Positions 30,175 to 34,690 of a stretch of 64,000 nt of DNA are shown here, piece after piece. Within the stretch, counting starts at the first letter, position 1, and each line of letters begins with the position of its first letter. The notes beneath the pieces were generated by a model that worked only from the letters and a program-made list of their open reading frames with translations, did not search any database and was not told where the DNA came from. Source of the DNA: Deltaproteobacteria bacterium (GTDB lineage: Bacteria > Desulfobacterota > Desulfobacteria > Desulfobacterales > Desulfosarcinaceae); the NCBI GenBank assembly GCA_021824175.1, contig JAKALP010000026.1:1-64000 (forward strand), read 5' to 3'. A program made the translations under genes and the position numbers.

Positions 30175-30254
30175 GTGCGCGTTTTCCTACCGACCATATT
30201 AAAGAGAAGAATCGCGGTTATCTGCATAGCGCCGGATTGGGTAGCTCGTTTGGC

Positions 30255-30440
30255 GTTGATACGTTGATTCGTTGATTGGTTGATTCGTGGAAGGAATTCT
30301 ATCTTTTTGATATTTGTCTGAAGGTTGATAGCCTCGTTAACGGCCGCTATGCCGCTATTTGCGTGGTTATCGACCTTCAGCCCAATATCAAACCGTCCAC
30401 GAATCAACGAATCAACGACTCAACCAATCAACGAATCAAC
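30255..30440. repeat. Inverted array of AATCAACG-type octamers
   Basis: Left array 30255-30290 and right array 30397-30440 are inverted copies of an 8-base unit. A second inverted pair lies inside (around GATATTTGTCTGAAGGTTGATA and its partner near 30368-30390). It sits between convergent genes. A single-sided array of the same unit occurs at 46943-46990. Confidence 0.75.
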
Positions 30441-31052
30441 TTAACCCCCAAAGGGACCGCCCGAAGTGACCAGGCTCTTAATGGCATCATACGGCTGGGC
30501 GCCCACCAGGAGTCTGCCATTCATAAAAAAGGTGGGCACGGCCCTGATCCCCATCTCGTAGCAGCGCTGCCAGTCCTCGTCCACGGCTGATTTGTAGCGA
30601 TCTTCTTTCAGTACCGCCTGGGCGGCGACGGGGTCCAGGCCCACGGCTGTGGCCAAATCCATGAGAACATCGGCCTGGGCGATATTGCGGCCCTGGGCAA
30701 AGTAGGCTTCAAAAACTGCTCTATGAAAAGCCTCCCCCTGGCCCATGATTTCCGCCCATTTGCCCAATTCCTGGGCCCGGCGGCTGTTGTAGGTCATGGT
30801 GCGCGCCGTAAAAGGCAGGCCCAGCCTGTCGGCGGTTTGCTTGAGATGCGCCACCATTTTGGGAATGTCCAGTCCGCGGCCGGCAAACAGATCCTCCAGA
30901 CTGCGGCCTTCGTCCTGAGTCTCGGGGTGCAGCGGAAAAGCCGTCCAGCGGATGGCCACGCCCAACTCCTTTTGTGCTCTTTCACTACTCCCGGTAATGA
31001 AGTAGCACCAGGGTCAGATATAGTCGGAGAAGATTTCTAAAACTGGTGCCAT
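30441..31052 (-). CDS. DsbA/FrnE-like thioredoxin-fold selenoprotein (UPWC active site, TGA = Sec)
   Basis: Read through one in-frame TGA (31014-31016), the gene gives 203 residues starting at ATG 31052 after GGAGGTGATCGT. The N-terminus becomes APVLEIFSDYI-U-PWCYF, so Sec13 stands at the first Cys of the DsbA CPWC active site. Downstream, the frame has the FrnE/2-hydroxychromene-isomerase-like features RWTAFPLHPETQDEG, FEAYFAQGRNI and the cis-Pro loop RAVPTFFMNGR. A conventional gene call would start after the TGA at 30965 and lose the active site. A SECIS-like hairpin follows the TGA. It lies 16 bases after the thiolase gene, same strand. It probably acts as a cytosolic thiol oxidoreductase, as there is no signal peptide. 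Confidence 0.88.
30975..31007 (-). promoter_or_regulatory. Bacterial SECIS element candidate
   Basis: Starting 6 bases after the TGA, the mRNA can fold TGCT-AC-TTCAT-TAC around a CGGGA loop with GTA-GTGAA-AG-AGCA: twelve pairs (one a U-G) broken by one 2x2 internal loop. The apical loop begins 20 bases after the UGA and has G at its second position. Both values fit the published bacterial SECIS consensus (16-37 bases; G in the first two loop positions). Confidence 0.8.
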
Positions 31053-31068
31053 ACGATCACCTCCTTGA

Positions 31069-32193
31069 TTACTTCTTAAGCAAGTGCAAAATGCACACCC
31101 CGCCCGCGCCCACCATATGCGCCATGGCGAGGTTAACTTCCTTTTGAACTTGCCGTTGGCCGCACTCCCTGCGCATCTGCCAGAGAATCTCAGCGATCTG
31201 TCCGACGCCGGTGGGGCCGATGGGATGTCCCATGGAGATCAGGCCGCCGCTGCTGTTGATGGGGTGCTTTCCGGTCAGAGCGGTCACCCCTTCTTGCACC
31301 AGACGACCGCCTTCACCCGGTTTGCACAGGCCCAATGCTTCCAGGTAGATAATCTCTTCTATGGTAAAGGCGTCGTGCAGTTCAATCAGATCCAGATCTT
31401 CCGGGCCGGTGCCGGTCTTCTCGTAGAGCAGTTTGGCGGTGTGTTGGGTCAGATTGAAGGTCGGGTCGCCGTCGGGCAGTACGCTTTTCAAGATAGAGCC
31501 CATGATGGTTGGGCAGACTTTATCCGTATATTTGGCGGCCACCTCCTTGGCGCACAAAATCACAGCCGCCGCGCCATCGCCGATGGGGCAGCAGTGCAAC
31601 ACGGTCAAGGGATCGGAAACCATGCGGGCCTGGTGAACTTCTTCCAGGGTCACGGCCTTCTGAAACTGCGCGTAGGGGTTGAAACTGGCGTTGAAATGGC
31701 TTTTCACCGAGACCTGGGCCAGTTGGTCCACGGTGGTGCCGTGCTGCTGCATATGCATTTTGGCCATGGCCGCGAACCATACCGCCGGCGTAAATCCCAA
31801 GGTTTTGTTTTCTTTTTTCGGTGCCTCGCCATCCTTGGGCTTGGATGGGCCGAGGGCTTTCTTATCCACTCCCATGGCCAGGGCGATATCACAGGAGCCG
31901 GACACAATGGACAAATAGGCTTCCCGGAACGCCGATGAGCCGCTGGCCGAGGCGTTCTCTACGTTGGTGATAGCCAGACCAGTGCGGCCCATGGCGCCGC
32001 AAATCTGATGGCCGGGAAACATGATGGCCTTGCCCATGGAGCCGCAATAGGCCTCCTGAATATCTTCCCATTGCATGTTGGCGTCCTTGAGGGCATTGCG
32101 GATGGCGGTCGTTCCCATTTGGGGAATCGAAATTTCGGGGAAATCTCCGTAGCGATGCAATCCCGCGCCGATGACGACTACTTCTCTGCTCAT
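31069..32193 (-). CDS. Thiolase-family protein with Ser in place of the nucleophilic Cys
   Basis: The start at 32193 (MSREVVVIGAGLHRYGDF) follows AAAGGATAACCCA, giving 374 residues, a normal SCP2-type thiolase length. LHDAFTIEEI and the SSGGLISMGHPIG motif carry the expected active-site His residues, and GAGGVCILHLL the late Cys. At the nucleophile site the usual N-A-C-A-S-G-S reads N-A-S82-A-S-G-S (codon tcg). The protein may thus bind CoA esters without normal Claisen chemistry, or act as a subunit. It is four bases after the helicase and precedes the selenoprotein. Confidence 0.85.
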   Translation of the reverse strand: MSREVVVIGAGLHRYGDFPEISIPQMGTTAIRNALKDANMQWEDIQEAYCGSMGKAIMFPGHQICGAMGRTGLAITNVENASASGSSAFREAYLSIVSGSCDIALAMGVDKKALGPSKPKDGEAPKKENKTLGFTPAVWFAAMAKMHMQQHGTTVDQLAQVSVKSHFNASFNPYAQFQKAVTLEEVHQARMVSDPLTVLHCCPIGDGAAAVILCAKEVAAKYTDKVCPTIMGSILKSVLPDGDPTFNLTQHTAKLLYEKTGTGPEDLDLIELHDAFTIEEIIYLEALGLCKPGEGGRLVQEGVTALTGKHPINSSGGLISMGHPIGPTGVGQIAEILWQMRRECGQRQVQKEVNLAMAHMVGAGGVCILHLLKK

Positions 32194-32197
32194 TGGG

Positions 32198-34690
32198 TTA
32201 TCCTTTCCCTTGCTGGGCACGATGATCCAGATGGGCCAGCACCAGTTTGATATCGCCATAGGAGACCCCATCTCCCAAGGCGGTCTTCAGCTCCTTTAAT
32301 GATTTTACTTCCATGACGCCGACTTTTTCTTCGATGGCCAGTCGCTTCTCATCCGCCACAAGTTTGCCGATCTCCAATTGCCCCTGGGCTACGAAATGGG
32401 CCAGGTGGCCTTCGATGGTGGTGGTCACCAAGCCGCGCCGGGCCGCGATTTGGGCGATGGGCAGGCCATCCTCGAACAACTGGAGGCTGACCTGTTTGGT
32501 GTCTTCCTTTGCGGTCTCTTTTACTTTGCTCTTCTTGGGTGGCGGAGCGGTCACCGAGGGCTCGGGCAAAACCACTTCCGTGATTTGATGCTCGCGCCGG
32601 TATTCGGCTACCATCTCCACGATCTCCTGGCCGTACTTTTCGGCCAAGCGGGGACCGATGCCCTTGATCTGCTTCAATGCCTTGATGGTGGAAGGCAGAT
32701 GAACAGCGATTTGCACCAGCGTTTTTTGATGCAAAATTTGATAGTGGGCCACGCCTTGGGCGGCGGCCTTCTCCTTGCGCCACTGTTTAAGGGCCTCGTA
32801 GACATCGGGGTGGCCGACATCGCCCTGTGAATATAGGGCGGCCTTGGTTTTGTTTTCGTTCTCGGTCTGGGCCTGGGCGACGTTCATTTCCGCCGTGGAC
32901 AGTGCCCGCAAGTACTTACCCGGCGAAAAATCCCGGCGGCAGGCGAGGATGCCGGCCAACGTGACGGCCACGGCTCCGCGGAAAAGTTTGATAGTGTCGT
33001 TGATGCTTTTGCGAATCTCTTTATTGTCGGTCTCCACCCCAATCTCTTCCAGCCAGGGAGAAAAGATGGCCGTGAATTTCTCCTGGAAGTAATCGGCGGC
33101 TTTGGCCAACCGTTCCAGAATAACGGGATCTTCGGCCGGCTGGCGCGCTTCGTCGAACATGCCCCGCAACTGCCGCTGAAATTTGGCGCCGACCTCGTAA
33201 ATCTCCGCCTCCGCCTGCTCGCGGCGGTCGCCCATATTGCCGGCGCCCGTGACCTGGATCACCTTGGCGTTGCCGCGCAGCAGACCGACCAGGCGGCCGT
33301 GCAGCCGGCGCAACCTTTCAAAGTCAAAGCACTCCAATAAAAGCTGCTGCTGGTAGCGGCTTTTGGCCGCGGCCAGCTTTTGCGCGGGCGCGGCGTGGGC
33401 TTGCACCCAGGCGGCGAAGCGCTGCACGGTGGGATCGCTTTTCACGGCGGCCGGTGTCAGCGGAACGCTGAGGACAATGCCTTCCAATGTACGGCAGCGG
33501 CTTAAGGCCACATAGACCTGGCCGTGGGCAAAGGCGGCCTGGGCATCGATGATGGCCCTGTCAAAGGTCAAGCCCTGGCTTTTGTGGATGGTGATGGCCC
33601 AGGCCAGTTTCAGGGGGTATTGGGTGAAAAGACCGATCACTTTCTGTGAGATCTCGGCGGTTTGCGGATCGATCTGGTATTCGATGTTTTCCCAGATGGT
33701 CTGGCCGACAAAGATGGGGTTGGGGTCGTCGGGGCAGCGCACCTCGACCATGTCGTCGTCCATGTCAATGATACGTCCGATTTTGCCGTTGAAAAAACGT
33801 TTCTCGGCCGAGGTATCATTGCGGATGAACATCACCTGGGCCCCTTTTTTCAGTTCCAGGGCGGCCGCGGCGGGATGGGTGTGGTCCGGAAACTCTCCCT
33901 GGATCTCCGCCTCAAAGCGCCGGATTTTGCCGCCCAGGACCTTGAGCCTGGAATCATTGATGGCTTCGGCGCTACGATTGTGGGTGCTCAGGGTGATGTA
34001 ACCTTCGCCGTCTCTGGGTTGAAAATTGGGAAGATAGCGGGCATTCAACTGCTTGAGGATATCGGCATCGAGCTGGTTGTCGCGCACGCGGTTGAGCAGT
34101 TCGATGAAGTGCTGGTCCGATTGGCGGTAGATATGCTTGAGCTCGATGGCCAGCCACTCGGTGCGGGCCAGGGCCGTGCTGCTGAAGAAGTAGGGCGACT
34201 CGTAGTACTTCTCCAGCATATGCCATTCGTCGGTCTTGGCCACGGGCGAGAGCTGGTGCAGATCGCCGATCATCAGCAGCTGCACGCCGCCAAAGGGCTG
34301 ATCGGAACGGCGGTAGCGCCGCAAAATGCTGTCCACCGCGTCGAGCAGGTCAGCCCGCACCATGCTGATTTCATCGATGATCAGAAGATCGAGGCCGCGG
34401 ATGATATTCTGCTTTTCGCGCCGGAGCCGGTGTTCGCGGAGCTGGGTCTCGCCGCCGGGCACAAAGGGTCCGAAGGGGATCTGAAAGAAAGAGTGTAGTG
34501 TGACGCCGCCGGCATTGATGGCCGCCACGCCTGTGGGCGCGGTCACTACCAGGCGTTTATGGCATTTCTTCTGGATGGTCTGTAAAAAGGTGGTCTTACC
34601 AGTGCCGGCCTTGCCGGTCAGAAAAATATGGCAGTTGGTATGCTGGACATACTCTTCGGCCAGTTGAAGATCGGGATTTGCAACCGTCAT
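32198..34690 (-). CDS. Pif1/RecD-like superfamily 1 helicase with HRDC and C-terminal HTH domains
   Basis: The 830-residue protein is a 5'-3' DNA helicase by family. Motif I is FLTGKAGTGKTTFL (about 25-37), motif II LLIIDEISMV, and motif VI region VYVALSRCRTLEGI. The middle shows a UvrD-C2-like IHKSQGLTFDRAII. An HRDC-like segment lies near 640-710 (VHLPSTIKALKQIKGIGPRLAEKYG), and the last ~90 residues resemble the helix-turn-helix seen at the ends of RecQ/Pif1-like proteins (QLFEDGLPIAQIAARRGL). Two adjacent ATGs (34690, 34693) follow GGGGGG. This role pairs oddly with the thiolase behind it. Confidence 0.88.
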   Translation of the reverse strand: MTVANPDLQLAEEYVQHTNCHIFLTGKAGTGKTTFLQTIQKKCHKRLVVTAPTGVAAINAGGVTLHSFFQIPFGPFVPGGETQLREHRLRREKQNIIRGLDLLIIDEISMVRADLLDAVDSILRRYRRSDQPFGGVQLLMIGDLHQLSPVAKTDEWHMLEKYYESPYFFSSTALARTEWLAIELKHIYRQSDQHFIELLNRVRDNQLDADILKQLNARYLPNFQPRDGEGYITLSTHNRSAEAINDSRLKVLGGKIRRFEAEIQGEFPDHTHPAAAALELKKGAQVMFIRNDTSAEKRFFNGKIGRIIDMDDDMVEVRCPDDPNPIFVGQTIWENIEYQIDPQTAEISQKVIGLFTQYPLKLAWAITIHKSQGLTFDRAIIDAQAAFAHGQVYVALSRCRTLEGIVLSVPLTPAAVKSDPTVQRFAAWVQAHAAPAQKLAAAKSRYQQQLLLECFDFERLRRLHGRLVGLLRGNAKVIQVTGAGNMGDRREQAEAEIYEVGAKFQRQLRGMFDEARQPAEDPVILERLAKAADYFQEKFTAIFSPWLEEIGVETDNKEIRKSINDTIKLFRGAVAVTLAGILACRRDFSPGKYLRALSTAEMNVAQAQTENENKTKAALYSQGDVGHPDVYEALKQWRKEKAAAQGVAHYQILHQKTLVQIAVHLPSTIKALKQIKGIGPRLAEKYGQEIVEMVAEYRREHQITEVVLPEPSVTAPPPKKSKVKETAKEDTKQVSLQLFEDGLPIAQIAARRGLVTTTIEGHLAHFVAQGQLEIGKLVADEKRLAIEEKVGVMEVKSLKELKTALGDGVSYGDIKLVLAHLDHRAQQGKG

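Follow-up and report, generated by a model that had tools for sequence, protein, structure and literature searches.

Within the window, the whole 64,000-nt stretch of DNA that we analysed (contig JAKALP010000026.1 of the Desulfosarcinaceae assembly GCA_021824175.1), minus-strand positions 31052-30441 form one 203-codon frame closed by TAA, and the sole in-frame UGA is codon 13 (Table 1). When this codon is read as selenocysteine (Sec), the protein begins MAPVLEIFSDYI-U-PWCYF. A sequence-only reading had proposed the frame, the UGA, the ATG and the ribosome site, and a check of the sequence found all of them where they had been placed. The same reading had taken the residues FSDYI-U-PWCYF to be a DsbA/FrnE active site with Sec replacing the first Cys, which the translated frame bears out, and it had warned that a conventional ORF would lack the active site; the ORF list indeed gives only 30441-30965, 174 aa with a TTG start. 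An ATG stands at the same codon in five same-genus copies that we compared, which are 60-71% identical.

We infer that the thiolase-like gene upstream and the Sec gene are possibly co-transcribed. A functional link to the upstream gene was considered and set aside as too thin, that gene having by eye the look of an acyl-CoA dehydrogenase in L012/L040 and L014/L041 (two same-genus genomes) and being a thiolase here. On the other side of the gene, between convergent genes, window positions 30254-30443 hold a palindromic element bounded on either side by tandem units of 8 nt (GTTGATTC type). These tandem-unit ends make up 41-nt arms (30254-30294 and 30393-30433) that are 88% complementary, and a second inverted repeat lies inside the element (30306-30347 and 30351-30392, 76%). 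The element may be a mobile or REP-like repeat.

Table 1. Features of the predicted selenoprotein gene and its surroundings, in window coordinates.
Feature	Position	Strand	Basis or remark
Upstream thiolase-like gene	31069..32271	-	its stop lies 16 nt before the ATG
Shine-Dalgarno AAGGAGGTGATC, full	31055..31066	-	sequence
Predicted Sec-containing DsbA/FrnE-type gene	30441..31052	-	203 codons plus TAA; Pfam DSBA PF01323
ATG start	31052-31050	-	sequence
In-frame UGA, codon 13, predicted to be read as selenocysteine	31014..31016	-	TGA in 97/109 homologous loci
Active-site motif U-P-W-C, residues 13-16	31005..31016	-	N-terminus of first helix (14-18)
Outer hairpin extension, 31008-31004 with 30978-30974	30974..31008	-	predicted in own sequence
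bSECIS-like stem-loop	30981..31001	-	8-bp stem, 5-nt loop
Pro173 codon of AVPT loop	30534..30536	-	P173 invariant in 46 rows
TAA stop	30443-30441	-	sequence

We compared the read-through protein by tblastn with loci from relatives and from a GTDB contig collection, taking the best 80 of 99 related stretches from the latter. In the 109 readable loci, which include the gene's own copy and, for the GTDB part, those best 80 of 99, codon 13 was TGA in 97, TGC in 10 and TGT in 2; Geobacter argillaceus and Desulfuromusa kysingii, two cultured relatives, are among those with TGA. Some places entered the set twice, by different routes; with distinct loci defined by the 45 nt from codon 13, 95 remained after repeats were removed, of which 83 had TGA, 10 TGC and 2 TGT. 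Homologues had been expected to carry either Cys or Sec at position 13, and 109 of 109 loci have a Cys codon (12) or TGA (97) there. In searches of whole genomes, 42 of 97 relatives gave 46 matches, of which 43 had one TGA as their only stop and three had no stop. Of 241 class genomes, 98 gave 107 matches: exactly one TGA interrupted 97 of these, one had both TGA and TAA, one had TAA only and eight had no stop. These two sets overlap, and the position of the codon was checked in the 109 loci only. Since TGA falls at exactly codon 13 in 97 of 109 loci and the rest have TGC or TGT, the reading of the UGA as a sense codon stands well above chance. The gene is absent from 5 of the 11 genus genomes, four of which are at least 90% complete, and so it is dispensable.

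Two further observations concern the spread of such genes. One TGA copy (L161:3001-3588) lies near one end of a 41-kb contig that IMG/VR classes as viral. DsbA relatives at a greater distance (31-37% identity) likewise contain one in-frame TGA each (G015:C56:47780-48349, G031:C276:11538-12107 and others), which suggests, as far as their sequences go, further Sec lineages in the superfamily.

If the UGA were a true stop, translation would begin farther downstream (TTG 30965 or GTG 30959) and yield a protein that lacks the active site, with the upstream codons left as a leader or a decayed remnant. The mechanical ORF does start at that TTG, an AGGAG lies 6 nt before GTG 30959, and of seven other loci four (all of the same genus) keep the TTG and one (L013) the AGGAG, while L016 has a TTG at the place of GTG 30959. 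However, three of the seven lack the TTG, six lack the AGGAG and none has the GTG, which is replaced by CTG in four, TTG in one and ATC in two. In distant genera, conservation extends over the whole protein, including the codons that precede the UGA and the motif that follows it, and the restriction of codon 13 to TGA, TGC or TGT in 109 loci is a limit that a drifting remnant would not show. We consider a true stop very improbable. A sequencing or assembly error that turned TGC or TGT into TGA draws its only support from the draft state of the genome (61 contigs), but TGA recurs at the same codon across many separate assemblies, in 97 of 109 loci or 83 of the 95 that are distinct; error is untenable as a general account, and we regard it as improbable in the extreme. 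The codon-13 counts over so many loci leave both sequencing error and decay failing as explanations.

Sec and Cys have replaced one another repeatedly in this family. A tree was built from 89 Sec and 11 Cys rows, the 100 distinct rows to which the loci were reduced once L098 (67 residues) had been left out. It requires at least seven trait changes, four of them forced by well-supported branches, and was made by a quick method, with many weak branches. One locus (L097:3001-3579) has TGT at codon 13 amid closely related TGA copies and retains six of the eight stem pairs and the loop of the hairpin described below. It has the look of a recent switch from Sec to Cys, unless the assembly is wrong there.

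The sequence-only reading had also described a hairpin behind the UGA with a suitable loop distance and a loop G, and we found it as proposed: the stem pairs 31001-30994 with 30988-30981 around the loop CGGGA (30993-30989), the stem begins 12 nt and the loop 20 nt from the UGA, and G occupies the second loop position. The published bSECIS model, as given in a 2026 review, has a loop of 3-9 nt, a stem of 4-16 bp, a UGA-to-loop distance of 16-37 nt and a G within the first two loop positions (PMC13188914), and the values here (loop 5, stem 8, spacing 20, G in position 2) all lie within it. For folding energy the same source gives at most -7.5 kcal/mol (PMC13188914); the value here depends on the stretch taken, being -5.8 kcal/mol for the 21-nt stem-loop, -11.8 over 39 nt and -15.7 over 48 nt with the outer helix. 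The outer extension is not in the consensus fold of 83 relatives. The hairpin with its flanks is stabler than shuffled sequences (z = -3.3; 1 of 200 shuffles as stable). An Rfam scan of 30300-31300 matched no family to the hairpin; its only two matches were both on the plus strand and far below the gathering scores. A crude SECIS rule of our own, run over the whole window, passed 367 of 2129 TGA triplets and did not pass the UGA of the gene itself, because the 8-bp stem alone has only -5.8 kcal/mol. The rule passed 34 of 88 distinct TGA homologues versus 3 of 12 Cys homologues, and as a test we rejected the whole-window scan, which is too permissive and fails the gene itself. Taken alone, the hairpin is weak, non-diagnostic evidence.

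The comparative evidence for the hairpin is stronger than its folding in a single sequence. Over the 83 distinct TGA rows that represent the 97 TGA loci, 90.1% of helix cells were paired versus 82.0% after shuffling, and the covariation score was 0.288 versus 0.148. Sliding the partner strand by 1-3 columns lowered this score in all six versions, and RNAalifold, unaided, recovered six of the eight pairs, four with compensatory changes. Shuffles reached two of the five covariation measures: the number of pairs changed on both sides (5) was matched by 135 of 500 shuffles and by a slide of +2, and the number of further pair types (14) by 43 of 500 shuffles. The mean number of stem pairs out of eight was 7.2 in TGA loci, 4.6 in TGC loci and 4.5 in TGT loci, a comparison in which the Cys homologues are also more distant. 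The loop G was present in 8 of 10 TGC and 2 of 2 TGT loci as well, and, averaged over loci, the 48 nt that follow codon 13 folded with nearly the same energy in the three classes (TGA -12.8, TGC -11.1, TGT -13.3).

Synonymous codon choice within the hairpin was strongly skewed relative to the rest of the same genes. Arg was written CGT in 67 of 74 cases (elsewhere 116/1196), Gly was written GGG in 42 of 44 (elsewhere 352/1159) and Phe was written TTC in 63 of 64 (elsewhere 325/686). Of the comparison codons just 5' of the stem, in the same unthinned set, Tyr TAT showed little bias (p = 0.04) and Cys TGC none (p = 0.71). We repeated the comparison on a thinned set, which excludes L115 (frame beyond the UGA shorter than 150 residues) from the 97 loci and reduces the remaining 96 to 22 divergent rows. 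In these 22 rows GGG was still used at 14 of 15 Gly sites versus 87 of 311 elsewhere, and CGT at 13 of 17 Arg sites versus 22 of 289 (p = 1e-10); none of these p-values allows fully for relatedness. The gene's own copy has Ser (AGT) at the Arg site and keeps both pairing bases. Together, these synonymous choices point to selection on the hairpin at the RNA level.

The four genes on whose presence the proposal depended, selA, selB, selC and selD, were all found in the genome, with SelA at 535 bits, SelB at 379 bits, SelD at 375 bits and a tRNA-Sec (anticodon tca) at 73 bits. Among the relatives, a TGA copy is carried by 39, counting the own genome, and SelB was above the cut-off in 38 of them. 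The exception (G070, 97% complete) has a TGA copy, a tRNA-Sec and SelA, with no SelB over the cut-off. TGA copies occurred in 38 of the 89 relatives with SelB over the cut-off versus 1 of the 8 others; since SelB is present in 89 of 97 relatives, its presence discriminates little and serves as a consistency check rather than as proof.

The own genome (G000) also holds a second tRNA-Sec/SelB pair, divergent in both members, with the tRNA gene directly preceding the SelB gene, on contig C22:173696-174945 (L135:4816-9729). This pair, whose tRNA again has the anticodon tca, sits behind a molybdopterin oxidoreductase gene that looks formate-dehydrogenase-like, and only one SelA match was found in the assembly despite the two tRNA-Sec/SelB pairs. 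Two SelB matches at 1e-60 were found in none of the other genomes of the 11-genome genus set (3 of the 11 being under 90% complete), and two SelB genes over the cut-off were found in 9 of 97 relatives, own genome included. The genome has two SelD genes, each with one in-frame TGA (C22:180507-181430 and C51:42445-43365), and to judge from these codons both are probably selenoproteins. Next after the SelD gene on C22 comes a TusA-domain gene that matches DsrE weakly and that we take to be YedF-like. Two tRNA-Sec genes in one bacterium have already been reported (PMC5330540). A division of labour, in which a resident and a divergent Sec-decoding set would each serve the UGA genes with one type of SECIS and only one of the two sets would decode this gene, is conceivable, but we think it improbable.

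The divergent tRNA-Sec-like gene with anticodon tca could also favor a different account of the codon, in which a suppressor or a mis-serylated tRNA-Sec would insert another amino acid at the UGA and the active site would not be a selenol. Against this, the 109 loci show no alternative residue at the site other than Cys, and the genome has SelA for the synthesis of Sec. We hold this account to be highly unlikely. Overall, the evidence from sequence supports the earlier interpretation of the locus as a Sec-read DsbA/FrnE gene.

The identity of the protein as DsbA/FrnE-like, also part of the sequence-only reading, held up: it is DsbA-like by Pfam (DSBA, PF01323, 128.3 bits versus a cut-off of 25.6; 4e-37) and closest to FrnE by both sequence and fold. 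The best sequence match in the PDB was Deinococcus FrnE (1.5e-20), with CPWC aligned to U-P-W-C, and the best fold match was FrnE 5cp1 (E 2.3e-15). FrnE structures took ranks 1-5 in the PDB, followed by SCO1869 and, lower, by HCCA isomerases, DsbM and GST-kappa, with HCCA isomerase and GST-kappa structures within ranks 11-22. The NCBIfam family NF041057 (Rcas_1661 family thioredoxin-like (seleno)lipoprotein) gave a weak match to the C-terminal half, at 46.9 bits versus a cut-off of 190, and we do not count the protein as a member.

Our alignment and AlphaFold model were made with 46 chosen rows rather than all loci. P14, W15, C16 and P173 do not vary among these rows, and column 13, for which Sec had been read as Cys, shows C in every one of the 46. 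The AVPT loop that contains P173 is presumably the cis-Pro loop of thioredoxin-like folds. Besides U13, Cys occurs only at 16 and 164, and there is no C-terminal CXXXXC. The model (mean pLDDT 95.8) puts residue 13 just before the first helix and the first strand at residues 4-9, and since that strand begins at residue 4, it would leave no room for a signal peptide. No conserved neighbour was found among the 467 neighbouring ORFs of the 109 loci, the commonest cluster occurring in 8 loci, in a count with flanks of unequal length and with some places represented by more than one locus. Because the neighbours are not conserved, any function has to be read from fold and motif.

From these data we judge, with a probability of about 0.95, that the gene encodes a DsbA-family selenoprotein of the FrnE type, predicted to be cytoplasmic. 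Fold and motif make a cytoplasmic selenol-based disulfide reductase or isomerase the most likely function, and we take it that the protein would rely on a donor other than a C-terminal CXXXXC. In the mechanism that we propose, SelB bound to the hairpin would deliver Sec-tRNA to the UGA, and the selenol at the N-terminus of helix 1 would attack disulfides or other oxidised sulfur or selenium substrates. The resulting mixed selenosulfide would be resolved by Cys16, and in this way the protein would, like Deinococcus FrnE, reduce or isomerise disulfides rapidly.

A selenoprotein with another main job than disulfide exchange, using its selenol for the detoxification of peroxide, selenite or metals, is an alternative that deserves to be taken seriously, although we consider it unlikely. 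The fold is common to kappa glutathione transferases and 2-hydroxychromene-2-carboxylate isomerases, which are among the fold matches, the gene neighbours point to no pathway, and a D. radiodurans frnE mutant is described as sensitive to cadmium and diamide (PMC8945050). On the other hand, FrnE structures come first by sequence as well as by fold, and all 46 rows have Cys16, which is expected to be the resolving residue. Disulfide exchange remains our preferred function for the selenoprotein.

The locus is a further example of a selenoprotein whose catalytic end can be lost in automatic gene calling, the ordinary ORF here being a DsbA-type protein without its catalytic motif, and the gene is worth annotating as a selenoprotein. 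In addition, a large clade (98 of 241 class genomes matched) with repeated Sec/Cys switches would provide a natural series for testing what a thiol oxidoreductase gains from selenium.

Related selenoproteins have been reported from several surveys. COG2761, to which some of them were assigned, is the FrnE group. The 2005 Sargasso Sea study describes nine DsbA-like selenoproteins of COG2761 with a UXXC motif (PMC1088965), a 2006 survey gives DsbA-like selenoproteins for Anaeromyxobacter dehalogenans and Desulfovibrio desulfuricans among others, a GOS survey lists three DsbA groups, and the selenoprotein table of the 2026 review has an entry "DsbA-like protein form 1, PF01323, UxxC" (Table 1 of PMC13188914). 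That review calls the biological functions of such selenoproteins, DsbA-like ones included, largely uncharacterised (PMC13188914). Among the titles listed by literature searches that combined FrnE or DsbA with selenoprotein terms, none concerned a bacterial FrnE selenoprotein.

NIP15863.1 and AACY01178397 are published examples of the DsbA-like selenoproteins. The gene described here has in common with DsbA-like form 1 the Pfam DSBA domain, Sec in the first and Cys in the fourth position of the motif and a downstream SECIS-like hairpin, and we found no difference from that family when comparing it by description (domain, motif, hairpin). Of the features that define form 1, a DSBA domain, a UGA at the first position of UxxC, the bSECIS geometry and the Sec machinery in the genome are seen at this locus. 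The family is plainly the same kind as the published DsbA-like selenoproteins, and going by the accounts above, a DsbA-like family with Sec has been in print since 2005. Eukaryotic selenoproteins rely on a SECIS element in the 3' UTR and on a different decoding machinery. SelenoDB 2.0 annotates an FrnE (DsbA) selenoprotein family in animals (PMC3965025), which shares the family name and the Sec with our gene, but is eukaryotic.

The closest known protein is FrnE of Deinococcus radiodurans (DR_0659; 5cnw, 5cp1, 5xwh), the best match in sequence and fold, in which CPWC corresponds to U-P-W-C; both proteins are predicted to be cytoplasmic. Deinococcus FrnE is described as a cytoplasmic disulfide oxidoreductase/reductase with isomerase activity in vitro (PMC8945050), and its C-terminal CXXXXC, present in many but not all FrnE proteins, helps to regenerate the enzyme (PMC8945050). 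The protein here differs in having Sec in place of the first Cys, in its length of 203 aa versus 260 in the PDB chain, and in the absence of the C-terminal CXXXXC. Measured against the CP(W/F)C motif of the FrnE subfamily (cd03024), the first Cys is replaced by the Sec codon and the other three residues agree. Judged on its predicted residues, the protein is a Sec-for-Cys variant of the FrnE-type active site.
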